Shown one piece after another: positions 4,151 to 39,450 of a stretch of DNA of 45,055 nucleotides. The translations under genes and the position numbers were made by a program. The notes beneath the pieces were generated by a model, which saw only the letters and a list, made by a program, of their open reading frames with translations, searched no databases and had not been told where the DNA came from. Each line of letters begins with the position of its first letter. Positions within the stretch are counted from its first letter, which is position 1. This DNA is from Bifidobacterium vansinderenii. Its GTDB lineage: Bacteria > Actinomycetota > Actinomycetes > Actinomycetales > Bifidobacteriaceae. The stretch covers positions 1 to 45,055 of the forward strand of contig NZ_NEWD01000008.1 of assembly GCF_002234915.1 (NCBI RefSeq). Direction: 5' to 3'.

Positions 4151-5830
4151 TTGGCTGAATTCATTTATCAGATGATCAACGCTCGCAAGGCGTACGGCGA
4201 CCGCGTGATCCTCGACAACGTGACGCTGAGCTTCCTGCCCGGTGCGAAGATCGGCGTGGTGGGCCCGAACGGCATGGGTAAGTCCACGCTGCTGAAGATC
4301 ATGGCCGGTCTCGACACCGTGTCGAACGGCGAGGCGACCCTGACCCCGGGCTACACGGTGGGCATCCTGCAGCAGGAGCCGCCGCTGGACGACGACAAGA
4401 CCGTGGGCGAGAACATCAAGATGGCGTTCGGCGACATCGCCGCCAAGGTGGCCCGCTTCAACGAGATCGGCGAGGAGATGGCGAACCCGGACGCCGACTT
4501 CGACGCGCTGATGGAGGAGATGGGCACGCTGCAGGCCGAGATCGATGCGGCCGACGGCTGGGATCTCGACTCCCAGCTCGAGCAGGCCATGGACGCCCTG
4601 CAGTGCCCCGATCCCGACACCCCGGTGTCCGTGTGCTCCGGTGGCGAGCGCCGTCGTGTGGCCCTGTGCAAGCTGCTGCTTGAGGCCCCCGACCTGCTGC
4701 TGCTCGACGAGCCCACCAACCATCTGGACGCCGAGTCGATCCTGTGGCTAGAGCAGTTCCTGCACCAGTACAAGGGCGCCGTGATCGCCGTCACCCACGA
4801 CCGTTACTTCATGGACAACGTGGCGGAGTGGATCTGCGAGGTGGACCGCGGTCAGCTTTACCCGTACAAGGGCAACTACTCCACGTATCTGGAGACCAAG
4901 GCCAAGCGTATGGAGATCCAGGGCGCCAAGGACGCCAAGCTGGCCAAGCGCCTCAAGAACGAGCTCGAATGGGTACGTTCCTCGCCGAAGGCCCGTCAGG
5001 CCAAGAACAAGGCCCGTCTGGAGCGTTACGACCAGATGGAGCAGGAGGCACGCAACAACAAGAAGCTCGACTTCTCCGAGATTCAGATCCCGGCCGGTCC
5101 GCGTCTGGGTTCGCTCGTGCTCGAGGCGAAGCACCTGCACAAGGCGTTCGGCGACCGCGTGCTCATCGACGACCTGTCCTTCACGCTGCCGCGCAACGGC
5201 ATCGTCGGCGTGATCGGCCCGAACGGTGTGGGTAAGTCCACGCTGTTCAAGACGATCGTGGGTCTGGAGCCGCTGACCAGCGGCGAGCTGAAGATCGGCG
5301 AGACCGTGAAGATCAGCTACGTGGATCAGAACCGTGCCGGCCTGGATCCGAAGAAGAACCTGTGGGAGGCCGTGTCCGACGGTCTTGACTTCATCGAGGT
5401 CGCCGGCGTGGAAGTGCCGACCCGCGCCTACGTGGCCAGCTTCGGCTTCAAGGGTTCCGACCAGCAGAAGCTCACGGGCGTGCTCTCCGGTGGTGAGCGC
5501 AACCGTCTGAACCTGGCGCTCACCCTGAAGCAGGGCGGCAACCTGCTGCTGCTCGACGAGCCCACCAACGATCTGGACGTCGAGACGCTGGAATCGCTCG
5601 AAAACGCGCTGCTCGGCTTCCCTGGCTGCGCCGTGGTGATCTCCCACGACCGTTGGTTCCTCGACCGCGTCGCCACGCACATCCTCGCGTGGGAGGGTGA
5701 CGACGAGAACCCGGCCAAGTGGTACTGGTTCGAGGGCAACTTCCAGGCCTACCAGGAGAACCGTGTGGCCCGTCTCGGCGAGGATGCGGCCCGTCCGCAC
5801 CGTCTGCACCGCAAGCTCACCCGCGTGTGA
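4151..5830 (+). CDS. ettA: energy-dependent translational throttle protein EttA (ABC-F ATPase)
   Basis: This is a soluble ABC-F protein of 559 residues, the usual EttA length. It carries two ATPase cassettes with Walker A at 38-46 (GPNGMGKST) and 356-364 (GPNGVGKST), each followed by SGGER and LLLLDEPTN. Between them lies the charged linker that contacts the ribosomal P-site tRNA, with SPKARQAKNKARL. EttA binds the E site and couples ATP/ADP ratio to entry into elongation. The start is TTG at 4151, preceded by GATAAGGA at a good distance, and no nearby ATG is plausible. A terminator follows at 5933. Codon use is strongly biased, suggesting high expression. Confidence 0.95.
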   Translation: MAEFIYQMINARKAYGDRVILDNVTLSFLPGAKIGVVGPNGMGKSTLLKIMAGLDTVSNGEATLTPGYTVGILQQEPPLDDDKTVGENIKMAFGDIAAKVARFNEIGEEMANPDADFDALMEEMGTLQAEIDAADGWDLDSQLEQAMDALQCPDPDTPVSVCSGGERRRVALCKLLLEAPDLLLLDEPTNHLDAESILWLEQFLHQYKGAVIAVTHDRYFMDNVAEWICEVDRGQLYPYKGNYSTYLETKAKRMEIQGAKDAKLAKRLKNELEWVRSSPKARQAKNKARLERYDQMEQEARNNKKLDFSEIQIPAGPRLGSLVLEAKHLHKAFGDRVLIDDLSFTLPRNGIVGVIGPNGVGKSTLFKTIVGLEPLTSGELKIGETVKISYVDQNRAGLDPKKNLWEAVSDGLDFIEVAGVEVPTRAYVASFGFKGSDQQKLTGVLSGGERNRLNLALTLKQGGNLLLLDEPTNDLDVETLESLENALLGFPGCAVVISHDRWFLDRVATHILAWEGDDENPAKWYWFEGNFQAYQENRVARLGEDAARPHRLHRKLTRV

Positions 5831-5932
5831 GATGCACGTGCGAGATGCGCGTGTGATATCGCACGGATGCCGCGTTCGTGATTGATGATGCGGCGGATCG
5901 GCGCCGGCTTGGGCGTTGATTGATAATGGGAT

Positions 5933-5972
5933 GGCGTTCCGTTCGGAGTGATCCGGGCGGGACGCCGTTTTT
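5933..5972 (+). terminator. rho-independent terminator of ettA
   Basis: The stem is GGCGTTCCG / CGGGACGCC (one G-T pair), at 5933-5941 and 5958-5966, followed by GTTTTTG. It lies about 100 bases after the ettA stop. The rest of 5831-6218 holds only this, the compound repeat at 6025 and the thioesterase leader. Confidence 0.8.
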
Positions 5973-6024
5973 GTCTAGTGGGCGGGTTTTTATACGGCAT
6001 ATTCGAACTTCTGCGATGTGTGAT

Positions 6025-6073
6025 CCCTCCCTCAGTCCGACTGCGTCGGACAGCTCCCTCCCAGGAGGGAGCA
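6025..6073. repeat. compound palindromic repeat, copy 1
   Basis: This begins with CCCTCCCTCAG, continues with an inner hairpin GTCCGAC-tgc-GTCGGAC, then AG, and ends with CTCCCTCC-ca-GGAGGGAG. The final GGAGGGAG can pair with the adjacent CTCCCTCC or with the first CCTCCCTC. Four more copies lie at 9865, 25381, 25456 and 35959. Confidence 0.85.
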
Positions 6074-6218
6074 TGGAGTAAGAGGACGAGGACGTCGTTA
6101 TCTCGCGTTCATCTATCTCACGAAGTCGTTACATAACACACCAAGGTTTCTTTACGAGTCCCGGATAGACTGCTTTGCAGACATATTGAATCAGGCTATA
6201 CGTGAAGTGAGGAAAGCT

Positions 6219-7124
6219 ATGCCGGTCAAGGAAAAGACGCCGCTGGAACATCTGATCAAGGTGCTTCATCTGGGAGAGCCGTCCGCGTACCGCAACCACA
6301 CGTATATCAACGGCGAGAGCCTGTACTTCCCCACCGGCCGCGTCTACGGCGGTCAGGTGGTGGCACAGTCCGTGGTGGCGGCCGCGCGCACTGTGGACGA
6401 GGATCGTCTGCCGCATTCGATCCACGCGTATTTCATCGCCGCCGGAGACATTCATCAGGACGTGCTGTTCGATGTGGAGAATCTGCGTGACGGTCGTTCG
6501 TTCTCCGCACGTCGCGTGAACGCCACGCAGGCGGAAGGTCCTATCCTCACCGCCATCGCCAGCTTCCAGAAGCATGGACAGGACGGCGTGGAGTTCTCCG
6601 ATCCCATGCCCGAGAACGTGCCGGATCCCGAGACGTTGAGCTCGGCCAAGGAACTGATGGAACCGTATGCCGATCAGTCGGCGTTCGCGAACTACTATGC
6701 GACCAAGTCCGCGTTCGACATTCGTCATGTGAATTCCACGGTGATGCTGGGCAGCGACAAGACCGCGAAGACCAACGACAGCGGCTGTCAGATGGTGTGG
6801 ATGAAGGTGGATGGGCATGCCGACGTGCCGCAGCTATGCCATCGTGCCATTCTGGCCTGCGGCTGCGATCAGATCATGATGGAGCCAATCGTGCGTCGCG
6901 CCGGACTGAGCTTCATGACTCCCGGCATTTCATACGCGACGATCGATCATTCGATGTGGTGGTATCGCGATGTGGATGTGAACCAGTGGCATCTGTACGT
7001 GCAGGATACGCCGACCGCCGCGCATGGCCGTGGTCTAAGCTACGCGAAGGTGTATTCGCAGGATGGCCAACTGGTGGCGGCGATGAGCCAGGAGGCCATG
7101 ATTCGTGTGCCACGGAAGAAGTAG
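6219..7124 (+). CDS. tesB: acyl-CoA thioesterase II (TesB type)
   Basis: This is a double hot-dog acyl-CoA thioesterase of 301 residues, hydrolysing fatty acyl-CoA to free acid and CoA in the cytoplasm. Family landmarks are RVYGGQVVAQS near the N-terminus, FSARRVNATQ, then ATIDHSMWWYRD and the C-terminal AAMSQEAMIR. The D of the DHSMW block, the downstream polar residue and Q of SQEA correspond to the Asp/Thr/Gln catalytic set of E. coli TesB. I chose ATG 6219 because GTGAGGAAA lies just before it. The frame extends to a TTG at 6186 with no ribosome site. It is a single gene with its own terminator. Confidence 0.93.
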   Translation: MPVKEKTPLEHLIKVLHLGEPSAYRNHTYINGESLYFPTGRVYGGQVVAQSVVAAARTVDEDRLPHSIHAYFIAAGDIHQDVLFDVENLRDGRSFSARRVNATQAEGPILTAIASFQKHGQDGVEFSDPMPENVPDPETLSSAKELMEPYADQSAFANYYATKSAFDIRHVNSTVMLGSDKTAKTNDSGCQMVWMKVDGHADVPQLCHRAILACGCDQIMMEPIVRRAGLSFMTPGISYATIDHSMWWYRDVDVNQWHLYVQDTPTAAHGRGLSYAKVYSQDGQLVAAMSQEAMIRVPRKK

Positions 7125-7130
7125 GAACAG

Positions 7131-7174
7131 AATGACGAGCCCCCTCATCTCATCATGAGGGGGCTTGTCATTTT
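7131..7174 (+). terminator. terminator after tesB
   Basis: GACGAGCCCCCTCAT and ATGAGGGGGCTTGTC form a long stem closed by a short loop, followed by ATTTTC. It is six bases past the stop and probably works in both directions, because the next gene ends here from the other strand. Confidence 0.85.
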
Positions 7175-7186
7175 CTGATTCCGTCG

Positions 7187-8071
7187 CTACTCGCGGGGAG
7201 CGAGGACGTTGGCCAGATGGCTCATCGTCATCGTGGACTCGGCCGGCAGATAGGCGGGATCGTCCTCATCCACCGTGGGATCGGGGATGACATGCACCTG
7301 CGCCGGGGTATCGGGGAAGATCACTTCCTGCTCCTTGGAGCGTTCACGAATCCAGTCGGCGAGCGACTGGTCGTTGTGGAACACCAGCATGTTGGAATCG
7401 TCGAGCGCTCCGGCCACGTCGGCGTAGGTCGGATAGTCGAGATTCGCCGAGATCGCATCGCGGGCCTTGGCCAGCGCGGGGGCCGCGGTCTCGTCAAGAT
7501 CACCCATCAGCGCATCGAACACGGCATCGATGCCCCGGTATACGATCACCGGATTCTTACGCTGATTGGAACGCGAATACACACTGGAGATGAACCATGC
7601 GTTCGGGTCGACGGGCACCGCACGCATCGGCTGGTTCTTCTTCCAGTTCTTGGTACGACGCACGTCCACGATCGGCTCGTCGTCGGGACGCTTGACATGT
7701 ACGGTCACATGGTTGCTCATCAGGGCCCACAATGCACGGGCATCCTTGAAACGCCGGGCGTTGCCGGATCCGTCAGCCGCCGCGTGCGCCGCACGCTGGG
7801 CGAGGTTCCGCAGGCTCACGGTCTTGCCGCCTGCAGCCGACGCTTCGATTCGTTCGCCGTCCACGGCGGCGGCGTTGCCATCGAGCAGGTCCAGCACATC
7901 GAGGAACAGATTCGGCAGATTCGTGTAGTACCGATCGGCCGTCAGCGGATACTGTTCGTGCTCGCCATAGACGTGCACCGGACGCAGTTCCCCACCCTCG
8001 TCGGCGGTCCACAGGGCGATGTCACGGGTGCCCGTGATCATGCGCAATTCATAACGTGTCATACGTTCCAT
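7187..8071 (-). CDS. conserved hypothetical protein
   Basis: I do not recognise this soluble protein of about 294 residues. It has no signal peptide or membrane helix. It opens with TRYELRMITGTRDIALWTAD and has a Lys/Arg-rich middle (RTKNWKKNQPM) before a segment resembling a substrate-facing loop (WFISSVYSRSNQ). The C-terminus is acidic and Pro-rich. The frame stays open to 8128. M at 8071 or 8062 is more likely, though neither has a strong ribosome binding site. It is the last gene of the long minus-strand block after DUF3180, so it may be transcribed alone. No function is assigned. Confidence 0.65.
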   Translation of the reverse strand: MERMTRYELRMITGTRDIALWTADEGGELRPVHVYGEHEQYPLTADRYYTNLPNLFLDVLDLLDGNAAAVDGERIEASAAGGKTVSLRNLAQRAAHAAADGSGNARRFKDARALWALMSNHVTVHVKRPDDEPIVDVRRTKNWKKNQPMRAVPVDPNAWFISSVYSRSNQRKNPVIVYRGIDAVFDALMGDLDETAAPALAKARDAISANLDYPTYADVAGALDDSNMLVFHNDQSLADWIRERSKEQEVIFPDTPAQVHVIPDPTVDEDDPAYLPAESTMTMSHLANVLAPRE

Positions 8072-8168
8072 TGTGTCACATGCGTGTACATACGTGTCAC
8101 GACCGCAATCGACACCCCCGTAAGGCATGGTCGATCAGACGGGGGCGTGCGAAGTGCGAGGAGCAGTG

Positions 8169-8750
8169 TCACCGGGCGTCGCCACGCCCGTTTTCGGATT
8201 CATGACGACGCCTGGCGCTCACACGATTGGCGGCGCCGGCCGCATTGGCCGCAGGCGCCGCGCCACGCAGACGCTCGGCTTCCTTGACCTGAGGATGCTC
8301 AGGCCCTTCATGAGGCGGCAACTGACACCAGTACTCCCCCACGATGCCGATGATCATGTCGGCGAGGCAGACCACCGCGGCCACCCCGCATTCCAGCGCG
8401 GCGTTGGCATAGTATTCCGCATCAAGATGAGGCAGGCACATGACCAGCTGGCCGCCGTACCATCCGACGAGGGCGGCGCCGGCCACGCCCAGGGACTTGG
8501 CGAGCACGAGCGTGTTCACGGCACGTTCCATGCTCAGATCCTTGAGATCCCCCTTGACGTACTTGTGCACCTGCCACGACAGGACAAGTACCAGCACGCC
8601 GAGCAGACCCAGCAGCACGGGCACGATCCACGGCGCGCCCGTGAACGTGTACTCGCTGTGCTCGGTGAGCTTGACCAGCATGACGCCGGCGAATCCGCCG
8701 AGAATCACTGCGATGGCGTAGTACCACCATGGCGTGCGACGTGCCTTCAT
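8169..8750 (-). CDS. DUF3180 family membrane protein
   Basis: This 193-residue protein has four hydrophobic helices (about 9-24, 41-59, 81-98, 118-137) and a charged, alanine-rich C-terminal tail. The pattern WYYAIAVILGGFAGVMLVKL near the start and the place directly after the folate genes match the actinobacterial DUF3180 family, which commonly follows folK. Its function is unknown. A GGGAGACAACA leader precedes ATG 8750, and the gap to folBK is 58 bases, so it is probably cotranscribed. A link to folate metabolism is suggested by neighbourhood only. Confidence 0.82.
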   Translation of the reverse strand: MKARRTPWWYYAIAVILGGFAGVMLVKLTEHSEYTFTGAPWIVPVLLGLLGVLVLVLSWQVHKYVKGDLKDLSMERAVNTLVLAKSLGVAGAALVGWYGGQLVMCLPHLDAEYYANAALECGVAAVVCLADMIIGIVGEYWCQLPPHEGPEHPQVKEAERLRGAAPAANAAGAANRVSARRRHESENGRGDAR

Positions 8751-34087: not shown

Positions 34088-35536
34088 CTAGAGACCGGTG
34101 GAGGCCAGCAGATAGGCCCCGCCGGTCGTTTCATATGCGTCCCATGCGACGTCTCCGTCCGAGACGGCATTCGAAGCAGTGATGGATACCGGACCATCAG
34201 CCGACGGAATGAAAACGGCATCTCCCCCATGCAATGCGTACGAAGCCGGACCGGCCCCGGCATCCGCCGGACCCGGCATCACCCGGGAACAGTTCAGCTC
34301 CCCGGACAGACAGACCAGTATGCGGGGCCTGGATGCGCATTCGGGTGACGGTACGATCGCCGAGGTCTCATGAAACGGGTATCCGGCCAATGCCACTCCC
34401 CCGTCTTCGGCGTCCGCCCGACCGAGTTTGAGTGAAAACTCGTCCAGTCCGGGACGGTACAGCACGCCATCAGGCCGGGCGAAGGATTCCGGCCGGCGGA
34501 CCGGTTCCGGCATCGGTCTGAGATTACGCAGCATGTTCGGCACGTCACGATGCTTCACCGTCAGTCCGGCACGCAACACGTTGTCGGAATTCGTCATGAT
34601 CTCCGCGGCCATACCTCGTATATAGGCATGCGGCGTGCCCGGGGTGATGAACGCCCCCTCCCCCGGTTGCAGCCGTACGGGATTCATCATCAGCAACGCC
34701 AGTACGGACGGATCGTCGGGAAACGACCGCGCCGCATCGATAGCGTTATCGAACGCGGATCGGACAGTATCCCGATCACCGGTTCGGCCGATTCGTTCAC
34801 GCGCCACAGTCAGCATCGACAGCCAATCCATGGGCCGCCGCGCATCGGTCCACCGCGCATCAGACCGCCACGCGTTTTCTCCGGCTGTCACCGCGGCCCA
34901 GAACGCACGAAATACGCTACGCCCAGGTACACCCCACGACACCGAAGACGGCGGCATGTATGCGTCCACCGAACGAACATCAACCAACGACGATGGATCA
35001 CCATCGGTCTTCCCCGTCAGCAGCCGCACCATCAGACAGGCAAGATCACAATCGACTAAACGGAGTGCGGCAATCTGCTGAGAGATCGGCGCAAATCCAA
35101 TCGACGCACGGAAATCCTCCAGTGCCACCACCATCTCCGACTTGCCGTGGGCGTCACGAAACGACCGGTCGAACGCATCAAGCGGCACCCCTGCGGCATT
35201 CTCCCGATGAAAGCCCGCCCTGGCCTCAAAATCCAACGGATGCACCTGCAACGACAGCGGTCGATGCACGGCGATCACCTTGAGCAGATACGGCAGCATC
35301 GGCCCCCACCGATGCGACGCCACCGGGCCGAGCATACGAGCCGGATTCTCACGAACCGCGGCATCCAACGCAACGTCTGCTCCCCGCATGGTCACGATGG
35401 ACGGCGACTGCGGATGCCCTCCATACCAGAGCTCGGCCAACGGACCAGTCACGCCGCGCATCGCCGGCATCAGCGATTGCAATCTCGTCGACGATCCCCA
35501 GGCGTATCGCTTCGGTACCGGTCGAATCGGAATCAT
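34088..35536 (-). CDS. manA: mannose-6-phosphate isomerase, class I
   Basis: ManA (482 residues) interconverts mannose-6-phosphate and fructose-6-phosphate in the cytoplasm, using zinc. The early RYAWGSSTRLQ, LAELWYGGHPQSPS, SLQVHPLDFEA (zinc ligands) and the GEGAFITPGTPHAYIRG block are characteristic. The segment about 200-270 is less conserved. AAGGGGGAT precedes ATG 35536; the frame extends to 35602 without support. It converges on serC. In bifidobacteria it supplies mannose utilisation or GDP-mannose synthesis. Confidence 0.93.
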   Translation of the reverse strand: MIPIRPVPKRYAWGSSTRLQSLMPAMRGVTGPLAELWYGGHPQSPSIVTMRGADVALDAAVRENPARMLGPVASHRWGPMLPYLLKVIAVHRPLSLQVHPLDFEARAGFHRENAAGVPLDAFDRSFRDAHGKSEMVVALEDFRASIGFAPISQQIAALRLVDCDLACLMVRLLTGKTDGDPSSLVDVRSVDAYMPPSSVSWGVPGRSVFRAFWAAVTAGENAWRSDARWTDARRPMDWLSMLTVARERIGRTGDRDTVRSAFDNAIDAARSFPDDPSVLALLMMNPVRLQPGEGAFITPGTPHAYIRGMAAEIMTNSDNVLRAGLTVKHRDVPNMLRNLRPMPEPVRRPESFARPDGVLYRPGLDEFSLKLGRADAEDGGVALAGYPFHETSAIVPSPECASRPRILVCLSGELNCSRVMPGPADAGAGPASYALHGGDAVFIPSADGPVSITASNAVSDGDVAWDAYETTGGAYLLASTGL

Positions 35537-35656
35537 TCCATCCCCCTTCCGGCTCCCGGATTGAACAGACGCATACCGTCGACGACATTCATGCGCACTC
35601 ACCCAAGGTTACCCAACATACAACCGAAGACAACCCCCGGCTGTAAGGTGTTCCCT

Positions 35657-35917
35657 ATGAAATTGGCACCCATTCTCGATCCAGGCGCTCGCAAGCCCGG
35701 CCCCAAGCCCGCACAGGTGGATCTGCACAGGGTGTTCTTCATCGGCACGACGCTGTGGCTGATCGCGGGGATCGTCTGCCTGATTCTGGTGCTGCTGGGC
35801 AAGCACGCGACCGGTGCTCTCATCGTATGCGTGGCCGGCATGATCATCGGCGTGCTGCTGCTCATCTGGGAGCACTTCAACCGGTGGTACTACCGCAGGC
35901 TGGGGAACCAGAAGTAG
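35657..35917 (+). CDS. DUF2530 family small membrane protein
   Basis: This 86-residue protein has two helices (about 27-48 and 52-71) with a basic, Tyr/Arg-rich end (HFNRWYYRRLG) and a proline-rich N-terminus. The size and layout match the actinobacterial DUF2530 group, of unknown function. AAGGTG precedes ATG 35657. The long open frame that begins at 35147 is mostly antisense to manA and is not coding. It is a single gene followed by a repeat-rich gap. Confidence 0.78.
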   Translation: MKLAPILDPGARKPGPKPAQVDLHRVFFIGTTLWLIAGIVCLILVLLGKHATGALIVCVAGMIIGVLLLIWEHFNRWYYRRLGNQK

Positions 35918-36131: not shown

Positions 36132-37442
36132 CTAATCGGCCAGAGGCAGGGAGAAGGTGAAGGTGCTGCCTTGTCCGGGGGCGCTCCACACCGAAACCGA
36201 ACCATGATGGGTGAGAGCCACATGCTTGACGATGGCCAGGCCCAGACCCACGCCGTCGCCGGTGCGCGACGACTGGTTGGAACCACGATAGAACCGTTCG
36301 AAGATGCGCGGCTGTTCCTCACGCGCGATGCCGCATCCCTGATCGACCACACGAACCACCGCATGCTTGCCGTCCTTGGCCCTGGACACGGCGATGCCCA
36401 CGGCCTTGCGCTCCGGGGAGTAGTCGATGGCGTTCTCGATGAGCTTGCTCAACGCGCCCTGCAGCTGCTCGCTTTCCGCGTGCACCATGATGTCGTCCGC
36501 ACCGTTGACGATCACCCTCACACCGTCCTTCCAGGCAAGCGGCGCCATGACGTCCGCGGCCGCGCGCACCTGATCGAGCAGGTTCACCAGATTGTCTTTG
36601 CTCGGCACAACCTTGGACTGGGCCTTGATCAGCAGCAGCAGATCGGCGACCAGATGACTCAGATGACTCGCGTAGTTCCGCACCCTTGAGGCCTCCACGA
36701 GAATCTGACTGATGTCCGCGTCATCTTCCTCAAGGTCTTCGCCCAACGTCTCCAACGCACGAGTAGGCTTGAGCAGCTGCTCGGTCACGTTCGCCACGAA
36801 GTCCTCACGTACCTGCGCGAATCGATGCTCCTCGCTCACATCGTTGATGATCACCAGCGTCTTCGTTTCGCTGATCTGACCAACGGTGACCTTCAGCCAG
36901 TTGGGCCGGGTGAACACCACCGTACCGTCGCCGATCACCTGCTGCTTCGCGGCAGCCGCACCATCGTCACCGTCATCGCCGAACCGGTATTCGTTCGCGA
37001 ACCGATCGGGCGTCTGCGTCACCAGTTCGCAGGACCGTTTGCCTCCCGACTCGCGAACACTGTGCACAGCCTGCAGAATACGGTCGTTCACCAGGCATTC
37101 GTCGTTCACGATGCCGAGACGGTAGGTGTCGGTGCTGGCCTGCAGCACCTCATCGTTCTCGTCCACCACCACCGTGAGGCCGGGAATGACGGACAGCATG
37201 CGCACGGTTTCGAAATCGAGTTCATCGTCGTCATCGTCGTCGTCATCGTTGCGTTTACGGGAGCGACGGAAGCCGATGCTGGCACGCCAGTGCGCGATCG
37301 CATCGGTGTTTATATACTGAGAGAGGAACGGATACGCCCAGTTGTACAACTTGGAAATCAGAGCCACGATCGCGATGAATATCATCACGCAGAAGATCAC
37401 GAAGATCACCATCGATACGATCTGGGCGTTTTGCGTAGTCAT
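36132..37442 (-). CDS. SenX3/PhoR-like sensor kinase without the acceptor histidine
   Basis: This 436-residue membrane sensor has an N-terminal helix pair (about 8-40), an acidic linker with eight Asp (66-73), a PAS-like region (about 80-205) and a kinase end. ATP-binding boxes are intact: N box LIENAIDYSP (N337), G1 DQGCGIA (367-373), F box FERFYRG, G2 GDGVGLGLAIV. The H box, normally FVANVSHELKTP, reads FVANVTEQLLKP, with E221 (codon at 36780-36782) at the histidine position. It may therefore be unable to phosphorylate itself. No response regulator adjoins it. Divergent phoU and gpmA nearby recall senX3-regX3 loci. It may act as a pseudokinase or bind ATP as a signal. Confidence 0.88.
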   Translation of the reverse strand: MTTQNAQIVSMVIFVIFCVMIFIAIVALISKLYNWAYPFLSQYINTDAIAHWRASIGFRRSRKRNDDDDDDDDELDFETVRMLSVIPGLTVVVDENDEVLQASTDTYRLGIVNDECLVNDRILQAVHSVRESGGKRSCELVTQTPDRFANEYRFGDDGDDGAAAAKQQVIGDGTVVFTRPNWLKVTVGQISETKTLVIINDVSEEHRFAQVREDFVANVTEQLLKPTRALETLGEDLEEDDADISQILVEASRVRNYASHLSHLVADLLLLIKAQSKVVPSKDNLVNLLDQVRAAADVMAPLAWKDGVRVIVNGADDIMVHAESEQLQGALSKLIENAIDYSPERKAVGIAVSRAKDGKHAVVRVVDQGCGIAREEQPRIFERFYRGSNQSSRTGDGVGLGLAIVKHVALTHHGSVSVWSAPGQGSTFTFSLPLAD

Positions 37443-37519: not shown

Positions 37520-37573
37520 GGTGAAGTCAAGGTAAACATGACGGTGAACACTCAGACAATTCGCGGTTTACAC
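37520..37573. promoter_or_regulatory. Pho-box-like direct repeats between kinase and phoU
   Basis: GGTGAA (37520), GGTAAAC (37531) and GGTGAAC (37543) recur at 11-12 base spacing; on the other strand they read GTTCACC-like, the half-site seen for PhoP/RegX3 regulators in actinobacteria. GGTTTACACC follows at 37564-37573. Two TTGCAA sites at 37625 and 37639 lie nearer phoU. Confidence 0.5.
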
Positions 37574-37667
37574 CGTGCGGCAACGGAGTCATTTCGGTGT
37601 TCATCGCCTAGAATGGGAAAAGGTTTGCAATCGGAAAATTGCAACGAAAATGGAAAGGCAAAGAGAA

Positions 37668-38375
37668 ATGCGCGTAATCTTCACCGAGGAGATGAAGCAG
37701 GTAGCCGACGACCTCGATCGCATGGCACAGGAAGTGCGTACTGCGATTCTCGGTGCCGGCAAGGCTCTGCTCGAATCTGATGTCGAAGTCGCCCAGAACG
37801 TCATCGATGGCGATCTGGAGATCGACGCCCTGGAAACCAGCGTAATCAACCAGTGCGTGCAGCTGCTGGCCCGTCAGAACCCCGTCGCCACCGATCTTCG
37901 CGTCGTGGTGTCCACGCTGCGTCTGGCCTCCACCTTCGAGCGCATGGGAGATCTGGCCCGTCACGTCGCCGAGATCGCCCGTCGCACCTACCCGGAGTCC
38001 GCGCTGACCCCGGAGACCCGCGAAGTGTTCTCCAAGATGCAGCAGTTCCTTGACGAGACCACCGAAGAGCTTATCCACGTGCTCTCCAACCGCGACGTCA
38101 AGGCCGCCGAGCAGCTGATCATCAACGACGACAAGCTCGATGCCCTGCACCTGCAGATCTTCGACATCGTTAACAGCGACCAGTGGACCGGCACCACTCA
38201 GCAGACCATCGACGTGGTGCTGTTGGGCCGCTTCTACGAGCGCTTCGGCGATCACGCCGTGTCCGCCGCTCGTCGTCTGGTTTACATCGTCTCCGGCTTC
38301 GACCCTACCAAGGCTCCGCAGACCAAGGCCGATTCTTCTGCCAAGGATCCGTACCTGTCCGTTCCGGAGAAGTAG
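37668..38375 (+). CDS. phoU: phosphate signalling protein PhoU
   Basis: PhoU (235 residues) links the Pst phosphate transporter to the PhoR/SenX3 kinase and inhibits signalling when phosphate is ample. Two three-helix PhoU domains are visible, each with its metal-binding motif: RLASTFERMGDLARHVAEIA (first) and LGRFYERFGDHAVSAARRLV (second). AAAGG precedes ATG 37668; M at 37650 is an alternative. It diverges from the degenerate kinase across a gap with Pho-box-like repeats, so a functional link is likely. No pst genes are in this window. Confidence 0.95.
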   Translation: MRVIFTEEMKQVADDLDRMAQEVRTAILGAGKALLESDVEVAQNVIDGDLEIDALETSVINQCVQLLARQNPVATDLRVVVSTLRLASTFERMGDLARHVAEIARRTYPESALTPETREVFSKMQQFLDETTEELIHVLSNRDVKAAEQLIINDDKLDALHLQIFDIVNSDQWTGTTQQTIDVVLLGRFYERFGDHAVSAARRLVYIVSGFDPTKAPQTKADSSAKDPYLSVPEK

Positions 38376-38586: not shown

Positions 38587-39324
38587 TCACTTGCCCTGGT
38601 TGGCGACGGCGGCTGCACCGGCAGCGGCGGCCTCCGGGTCCAGGTACTCACCACGCGGCTTGATCGGCTTGAAGTTCTCGTCAAGCTCGTACACCAGCGG
38701 GATGGCGGTGGGGATGTTCACCTTGGCGATCTCCTCTTCGCTCAGGTCGTCAAGCATCTTGACGATGGCGCGGAGGCTGTTGCCGTGGGCGGCGATCAGC
38801 ACGGTCTTGCCGGACTTGAGCTCGGGGATGATCTCGGACTCCCAGTACGGGGTCACGCGGGCCACGACGTTGGCCAGGGCCTCGGTCTCGGGAACCGGAT
38901 CGCCGGCGTAGCGCGGGTCGTTGTTCTGCGAGTACTCGTCGTTCGGATCGATCTCCGGCGGCGGGGTGGCGTAGGAACGACGCCAGAGCATGAACTTCTC
39001 GTCACCGTACTCCTGACGGATCTCGGACTTGTTCTTGCCCTGCAGGGCGCCGTAGTGGCGCTCATTGAGGTGCCAGCTACGCTTGACCGGGATCCACAGA
39101 CGATCGGCGGCATCCAGCGCGATGTTGGCGGTGTTGATGGCGCGACGCAGCAGGGAGGTGAACACGATGTCCGGAAGGACGTTCTTCTCCTTGAGCAGCT
39201 CGCCGCCGCGCTTGGCCTCGGCTTCGCCCTGCTCGGTCAGCGGGACGTCCACCCAGCCGGTGAACTGATTGGTCTTGTTCCATGCGCTCTGTCCGTGACG
39301 GAGCAGTACTAGTTTGTAAGTCAT
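38587..39324 (-). CDS. gpmA: 2,3-bisphosphoglycerate-dependent phosphoglycerate mutase
   Basis: GpmA (245 residues) interconverts 3- and 2-phosphoglycerate in glycolysis by a phosphohistidine mechanism. [18 protein letters not shown] carries the phospho-histidine, [13 protein letters not shown] the substrate loop and [15 protein letters not shown] the second histidine. ATG 39324 has no ribosome site but a TAGACT box seven bases before it (39332-39337, reverse), so it is probably leaderless. The open frame to 39426 is not supported. Codon use is strongly biased, as expected of a highly expressed glycolytic gene. Confidence 0.96.
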
Positions 39325-39450
39325 ACGGCACAGTCTATGCCAATCTTGCGACGAAAACCATGGCAAAACCCTCACGATTCCATAACGGACAGGTAAACAT
39401 TCGGCATGTTTTCCAGTCGATGTCACAACGTTGACATCATTGAATTGACG

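Follow-up and report, generated by a model that had tools for sequence, protein, structure and literature searches.

A SenX3-related pseudo-histidine kinase beside phoU in Bifidobacteriaceae, a predicted ATP-binding member of the phosphate pathway

Introduction

The PhoRP system of Bifidobacterium breve was reportedly described by Alvarez-Martin in 2012. For the B. breve laboratory strain UCC2003, a two-component system of phosphate starvation is reported. In B. longum, SenX3-RegX3 or PhoRP have been taken as ordinary two-component systems (PMC3517610, PMC10329679), and strains in which phoR was not found are reported in PMC10329679. According to PMC12301784, PhoU of Mycobacterium smegmatis moves SenX3 toward phosphatase and the PAS domain of SenX3 is essential for Pi sensing; the same source reports a docking model for E. 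coli which puts PhoU in the PAS-CA cleft. Salmonella PhoU is described as contacting both the PAS and the kinase domains of PhoR (PMC9239213).

Few bacterial pseudo-histidine kinases appear in the literature searched, DivL being chief among them. As described in PMC4211667, DivL carries a Tyr at the His site, is devoid of kinase activity and binds ATP weakly; it reads a response regulator and steers another kinase. A laboratory-evolved ChrS pseudokinase of Corynebacterium glutamicum is reported to act only with the paralogous HrrS (PMC9491836). In the literature searched, which covered few subscription papers, we found no account of the bifidobacterial pseudokinase presented here. It is encoded in the window, by which we mean the whole stretch of 45,055 nucleotides of Bifidobacterium vansinderenii that was analysed.

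Results

Architecture and predicted fold

The gene codes for a protein with the SenX3/PhoR-type domain order of membrane helix, PAS, DHp and CA. Its features are as follows.

36132..37442, minus strand: pseudo-histidine kinase gene, 436 aa, ATG at 37442 (ORF, Pfam, AF2 model, Foldseek)
37314..37439, minus strand: N-terminal membrane helix, residues 2-43 (hydropathy, windows from residues 1-19, and model helix)
36840..37214, minus strand: PAS-like domain, residues 77-201 (alignment and AF2 model)
36618..36836, minus strand: DHp helical hairpin, residues 203-275 (alignment and AF2 model)
36135..36590, minus strand: CA (ATP-binding) domain, residues 285-436 (Pfam, alignment, AF2 model)
Within CA, minus strand: G1 (D367, G369, G371), F (380-386) and G2 (397-404) boxes, all intact (alignment)

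Pfam matched HATPase_c (98 bits, 5.8e-28) and gave neither a HisKA nor a PAS match in the protein; the PAS-like sheet comes from the AlphaFold2 model. This model, calculated from a 38-row alignment with a mean pLDDT of 82.8, consists of a helix (2-43), the PAS-like sheet (77-201), the DHp helices (203-239 and 244-275) and the CA domain (285-434). The best 50 Foldseek matches to it were mainly histidine kinases, PAS-kinases included. Among them, VicK (4i5s_B) aligned across 379 columns and DivL (4q20_B) matched with a TM-score of 0.75 over the target. As judged from the model, the PAS-DHp-CA fold is kept. The best 25 of 84 NCBIfam matches bore histidine-kinase names only, all below their cut-offs. 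Around the locus, Rfam matched nothing and a scan for sigma-70 promoters found none.

Loss of phosphotransfer residues and conservation of the nucleotide pocket

In HisKA kinases, the Glu following the phosphorylated His serves as general base, and a Thr or Asn at position +4 has a phosphatase role. The corresponding codons of the pseudokinase are listed below.

36780..36782, minus strand: Glu221, phosphohistidine position (orthologue alignment)
36777..36779, minus strand: Gln222, position of the general-base Glu (orthologue alignment)
36768..36770, minus strand: Lys225, position of the phosphatase Thr/Asn, +4 (orthologue alignment)
36444..36446, minus strand: Lys333, position of the first N-box Asn (alignment and HK853 mapping)
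36432..36434, minus strand: Asn337, second N-box Asn (orthologue alignment)

A first reading of the window, made from the sequence alone, had placed a Glu where the H-box His belongs, and the alignment with SenX3 confirmed it. E221 (codon 36780-36782) lies in FVANVTEQLLKP, which aligns with FVTNVSHELKTP of the genome's own intact SenX3-type kinase. Residues were compared in 137 orthologues, one per genome, with 8 of the 145 pseudokinase genomes absent. Site 221 was occupied by E (110), Q (13), R (7), D (3), N (2), T (1) or V (1); His and Tyr were each found in 0/137. Gln predominated at site 222 (Q130, R5, M2), while site 225 held Lys in 70 orthologues and otherwise varied (T in one, N in four). 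Lys333, aligned to the first N-box Asn of HK853, was a Lys in 134 and E, R and C in one each. We further compared 29 pseudokinases with 53 canonical kinases (17 SenX3 of the family, 30 outgroup SenX3 and 6 distant ones). All 53 canonical relatives displayed H, E, T and N at the four sites; the pseudokinases had none of the four (0/29).

In contrast, the nucleotide-binding residues were retained. N337, D367, G369, G371, F381, R383, R386, G399 and K406 were present in 137/137 orthologues and G401 in 136/137. The statement of the sequence-only reading that the N, G1, F and G2 boxes are intact thus holds for G1, F, G2 and the second N-box Asn (N337), but not for the first, which is replaced by Lys333 (Lys in 134/137). 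It is well supported by these alignments that the pseudokinase, having lost the His, the general-base Glu, the phosphatase Thr and the first N-box Asn, is predicted to be catalytically dead. Also well supported by sequence is the prediction of an ATP-binding protein with an essentially invariant nucleotide pocket. In the PAS-like domain, T142, T144, R179, N181 and W182 hardly varied among the pseudokinases compared, and SenX3 mostly has other residues at these positions.

The residues speak against the suggestion that another acceptor is used, as site 221 varied among E, Q, R, D, N, T and V and a search of the DHp helices for a replacement revealed no His invariant across the 137 orthologues. 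The commonest DHp histidine was H263 in helix 2 (H116, R15, K5, L1). Two histidines outside this search were rejected as alternative phospho-acceptors: H407 also occurs in SenX3, and canonical relatives nearly always have H412. An active enzyme of another kind, which phosphorylates a different residue, hydrolyses ATP or transfers AMP, might be seen in the invariant ATP pocket, in the fixed Lys333 beside the nucleotide, which could mean altered chemistry, and in the frequent His263 (116/137). With the old acceptor position variable, the DHp devoid of an invariant acceptor His and both the general base and the first N-box Asn gone, we consider such an activity very improbable.

Distribution, selection and descent of the gene

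A search with E <= 1e-50 detected the pseudokinase in 145 of 189 Bifidobacteriaceae genomes. Below this cut-off, inspection by eye revealed a divergent copy with Glu at site 221 and the N-box Lys (G170) and a more decayed copy with a non-His residue at site 221 (G184).

Against three relatives, dN/dS of the whole gene was 0.086, 0.126 and 0.252. The corresponding DHp values were 0.03, 0.03 and 0.11, making it the most constrained domain in all three comparisons, and CA gave about 0.06 against the two nearest species. Overall, whole-gene and domain values ranged from 0.03 to 0.32 in the three comparisons, with dS near saturation for some domains. These ratios indicate that the gene is under purifying selection. 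The prediction of an ATP-binding pseudokinase, already made in the sequence-only reading, therefore stands on the loss of four catalytic residues, a conserved pocket and purifying selection.

Loss of catalytic residues is also what a decaying gene or a sequencing error would produce. When sister species were checked for a His at site 221 as a sign of such an error, none of the 137 orthologues had one. Moreover, the gene occurs in 145/189 genomes, those placed in the tree (29) form a single group with support 100/100, dN/dS lies between 0.03 and 0.32 and the pocket is invariant. We rejected this explanation, which retains next to no probability.

In the tree, the 29 pseudokinases sided with the SenX3 proteins of their own family against outgroup and distant kinases with support 97/88 (DivL was absent from the tree). 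Their branch is long (1.25), and long-branch error could affect the grouping with the family's SenX3, which is provisional for this reason. We provisionally propose that the pseudokinase arose by duplication of SenX3 on the family stem.

The phoU locus and the ancestral senX3 slot

The neighbours of the pseudokinase gene are:

37668..38375 (listed ORF 37575-38375), plus strand: phoU, divergent neighbour (Pfam, homology)
38587..39426, minus strand: gpm, phosphoglycerate mutase of the histidine-phosphatase superfamily (Pfam, synteny)

The ATG at 37668 is the likely phoU start; homology in relatives mostly starts around residues 23-30 of the ORF as listed. gpm is a member of the ancestral gpm-phoU-senX3-regX3 block. 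On the other side, an ORF at 35147-35917 (plus strand) faces the 3′ end of the pseudokinase gene; its C-terminal part resembles DUF2530 (E 0.0007, below the curated cut-off).

Among 119 Bifidobacteriaceae loci, phoU was divergently adjacent to the pseudokinase in 118 and gpm was nearby in 96. In the exception (L172, L265; genome G098), the pseudokinase lies on contig C15, apart from phoU and gpm, which share contig C10. A response regulator neighbour had been noted as absent, and indeed 0/119 loci contained a RegX3-like gene beside the pseudokinase within the flank examined. In genus g8, pstS came next after the pseudokinase in 3/3 loci (L140, L141, L160).

Twenty outgroup loci, chosen among the best of 374 matching genomes, were read; they belong to 11 further families within the order. 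All 20 had an intact senX3 in the same slot, divergent from phoU and followed by regX3, in agreement with the gpm/phoU/senX3-regX3 placement first proposed for the window. gpm was present in 18/20, pstS followed regX3 in 2/20, and the H box was confirmed in two. regX3 had been called missing, which is correct for this locus but not for the genome: on another contig, an intact kinase of SenX3 type and a regulator of RegX3 type adjoin pstSCAB. Six further senX3 loci of the family were read, and regX3 and pstS were present in 6/6. Since the phoU slot is ancestral and senX3-regX3 now lies beside pst, it seems that the original gene block broke up, that the kinase was duplicated and that one of the copies was inactivated where it stood.

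Co-occurrence with phosphate genes

At the search cut-offs, phoU was found in 166/189 genomes, including 145/145 with the pseudokinase, and none of the 23 genomes without phoU had a pseudokinase. pstC was present in 170/189 genomes, again including 145/145. Membership of the pseudokinase in the phosphate (Pho) pathway is well supported. Conversely, 21 phoU-positive genomes were without the pseudokinase at the cut-off, among them G170 and G184, which proved to hold the divergent and decayed copies. In 11/11 further loci read from phoU-positive, pseudokinase-negative genomes of genus g5 the slot was empty (13/21 read altogether), so PhoU does not always need the pseudokinase.

Canonical SenX3 was detected in 97/189 genomes (E <= 1e-40). 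This status was amended by removing G162, a cross-hit to the pseudokinase, and adding G003 and G044, whose loci contain a divergent senX3. A RegX3 cut-off of E <= 1e-80 gave 97 genomes, namely the SenX3 genomes plus G044. SenX3 was undetectable in about 49 genomes that nevertheless possess the pseudokinase, phoU and pst. At the pst loci of 20 presumed SenX3-negative genomes, senX3 and regX3 were absent upstream of pstS in 19, and both were present in diverged form in G003; of the final 49 SenX3-negatives, 19 pst loci were thus read. The diverged pair of G003, a genus mate of the window genome, lies near pst (L272, about 4904-8445) and possibly represents an intermediate stage of loss.

At least one HisKA match was found in each of the 189 genomes, and an unrelated kinase could therefore be a partner of the pseudokinase. 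An orphan response regulator was considered as hidden partner and rejected: the genome has 8 OmpR-type genes, 2 of them on contigs without a HisKA match, and neither links to the pseudokinase. One (L075:6139-7224, contig C16 of G000) is a GlnR-type regulator with Pfam GlnR_1st and Trans_reg_C on a contig with no HisKA match listed. The other (L076:4550-5290, contig C12 of G000) is an OmpR-type gene with a Pfam DNA-binding domain and no receiver domain detected, likewise with no HisKA match listed on the contig; two ORFs resembling histidine phosphatases adjoin it.

A PHO box in the gap between phoU and the pseudokinase gene

The motif GTTCACC is described as conserved in the PHO box of Streptomyces coelicolor (PMC4415409). 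The intergenic gap of the window contains similar repeats with 12/14 matches:

37520..37549, minus strand (pseudokinase strand): PHO-box-like repeats CTTCACC / GTTTACC / GTTCACC, periods 11 and 12 (sequence and scan)

A box was defined as two 7-bp GTTCACC-like repeats with an 11-bp period and at least 11/14 matches, the consensus being that of S. coelicolor. It was sought in 118 loci of 145 genomes, with the window's own locus uncounted and L172 dropped as it has no phoU. The gap contained a box in 55/75 SenX3-positive versus 1/43 SenX3-negative genomes (counts that ignore shared ancestry), and 20/75 SenX3-positive gaps scored under the threshold. In 54/55 cases the box was on the pseudokinase strand. 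The contrast recurred within g5 (44/58 versus 0/15) and g6 (4/6 versus 1/19). With 120 permuted units the mean was 2.8/75; the top values of 33, 18 and 18 apparently came from shifts overlapping the real motif. Period 12 performed equally to period 11 (56/75 versus 3/43), and periods 8-10 and 13-15 gave only 1-10/75. In trimmed gaps, of which 96 were scorable, boxes were found in 37/70 SenX3-positive and 0/26 SenX3-negative genomes. The same box occurred upstream of pstS in 6/6 SenX3-positive loci versus 1/19 SenX3-negative ones; one of the six (L266) was on the strand opposite pstS. Outgroup gaps exceeded the threshold in 13/20, and the best site was on the phoU strand in 19/20. The simplest reading of this pattern would be that the pseudokinase is under RegX3 control in starvation and that the box is eroded once RegX3 has been lost.

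Residues that differ with SenX3 status

When the orthologues were divided by SenX3 status, E221 was present in 85/92 with and 25/45 without SenX3 (Fisher 1e-6, ancestry ignored). Within g5 the proportions were 70/74 versus 9/17, and within g6 6/6 versus 12/19. P226 behaved similarly (92/92 versus 30/45). Two SenX3-positive g11 genomes with T and V at site 221 speak against a strict need for Glu. The ATP-pocket residues and T142, R179 and W182 were invariant in both classes, with single exceptions at G401 and T144. The relaxation of E221 and P226 without SenX3 suggests that the helix around the old phospho site matters to SenX3 or RegX3. The PAS and nucleotide sites stay in place without SenX3, which suggests that they serve something outlasting SenX3-RegX3. 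The protein thus seems to have two functional surfaces, the helix of the old phospho site and the PAS/nucleotide sites. For the latter, PhoU is the natural candidate as partner.

Both features of the old phospho-site helix would also fit a heterodimer with active SenX3, in which the DHp bundle shifts the kinase/phosphatase balance and the adjacency to phoU is merely historical. Such an explanation, possible though somewhat doubtful in our view, draws on the grouping with the family's SenX3 (97/88), on E221 and P226 being held with SenX3 and relaxed without it, on the DHp as most constrained domain in three comparisons and on the reported precedents ChrS-HrrS (PMC9491836) and DivL-CckA (PMC4211667). 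It is countered by the approximately 49 genomes without detectable SenX3 that keep the gene, the pocket being invariant in the 45 aligned.

A RegX3 decoy or scaffold would likewise act through this helix, Glu221 mimicking phosphohistidine or shaping a RegX3-binding DHp surface in the style of DivL and DivK. The preference for Glu in the presence of SenX3 (85/92 versus 25/45) points in this direction, as does the description of DivL reading a response regulator via its DHp (PMC4211667). However, Q, R, T and V occur at site 221 in SenX3-positive genomes too, and retention of the gene after RegX3 loss would be left unexplained, making this role unlikely.

Discussion

The loss of the catalytic residues alongside a kept ATP pocket suggests that the protein relays or tunes phosphate signals through partner binding rather than phosphotransfer. 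Synteny and co-occurrence favour signalling through PhoU or via another kinase that it binds. Because the synteny is inherited from senX3, a contact with PhoU does not follow from adjacency by itself. Our preferred reading, whose probability we put at about even, is that the protein binds ATP without phosphorylating and acts as a partner of PhoU, with an additional contact to SenX3-RegX3 where this system exists.

According to this PhoU-partner reading, a duplicated SenX3 (PhoR-type) copy would have stayed in the ancestral slot beside phoU and lost its phosphotransfer chemistry before the family radiated, becoming an ATP-binding adaptor of the phosphate pathway. Its PAS/CA face may bind PhoU as in SenX3/PhoR, with ATP occupancy of the CA domain presumably setting the conformation. 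In genomes with SenX3-RegX3, RegX3 would induce the pseudokinase via the PHO box in phosphate starvation. The induced protein might alter the amount of PhoU reaching active SenX3, contact SenX3 or RegX3 via its DHp, or both, and the outcome would be a feedback module that works without any phosphotransfer. In genomes that have lost SenX3-RegX3, the pseudokinase may still have a function tied to PhoU, such as the control of Pst.

For the approximately 49 species without detectable SenX3-RegX3, we tentatively go one step further. Here, the pseudokinase and PhoU might make up a module for phosphate sensing to which no cognate two-component pair is known. The pseudokinase would be a membrane receptor for PhoU, gated by ATP and non-phosphorylating, and would directly control Pst. 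Although we regard this extension as rather doubtful, it would mean, if true, that signalling by PhoU can persist after the loss of its two-component system.

The pseudokinase provides a new example of a pseudo-histidine kinase. It is kept across the family to which Bifidobacterium belongs and occupies the gene slot of the best-known phosphate sensor of actinobacteria. Some species possess the active paralogue and others do not. This natural contrast makes the role of a conserved ATP pocket in a dead histidine kinase, and the targets of PhoU without its usual kinase, testable. It is also a warning for annotation, as a bifidobacterial 'SenX3' beside phoU is probably not the phosphate kinase.

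Comparison with known systems

SenX3/PhoR kinases (M. smegmatis SenX3, B. breve PhoRP) are the nearest phylogenetic relatives of the pseudokinase, which has in common with them the domain order, the phoU/gpm locus and a PHO box in the gap. Unlike them, it is without the phosphohistidine, the general base, the usual phosphatase Thr and the first N-box Asn, has no adjoining response regulator and displays a PAS motif specific to its own family. It also differs from outgroup senX3 loci in the orientation of the PHO box: here the box is on the pseudokinase strand, but in 19/20 outgroup gaps the phoU strand holds the best site.

The pseudokinase resembles DivL of Caulobacter (Tyr550) in having a residue other than His at the phospho site of a kept DHp-CA fold. 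In contrast to DivL, it belongs to another phylum and another pathway, has Glu instead of Tyr and groups with SenX3. It exhibits more changes in the H and N boxes, DivL being said to keep the other histidine kinase motifs, and its pocket residues are invariant, whereas DivL is reported to bind ATP weakly (PMC4211667 for both properties of DivL). ChrS_CA-fs of C. glutamicum is likewise an actinobacterial, dead paralogue alongside an active kinase. That variant is a laboratory frameshift in CA with the His kept; the pseudokinase, conversely, keeps its CA domain and appears to have lost the DHp chemistry naturally and family-wide.
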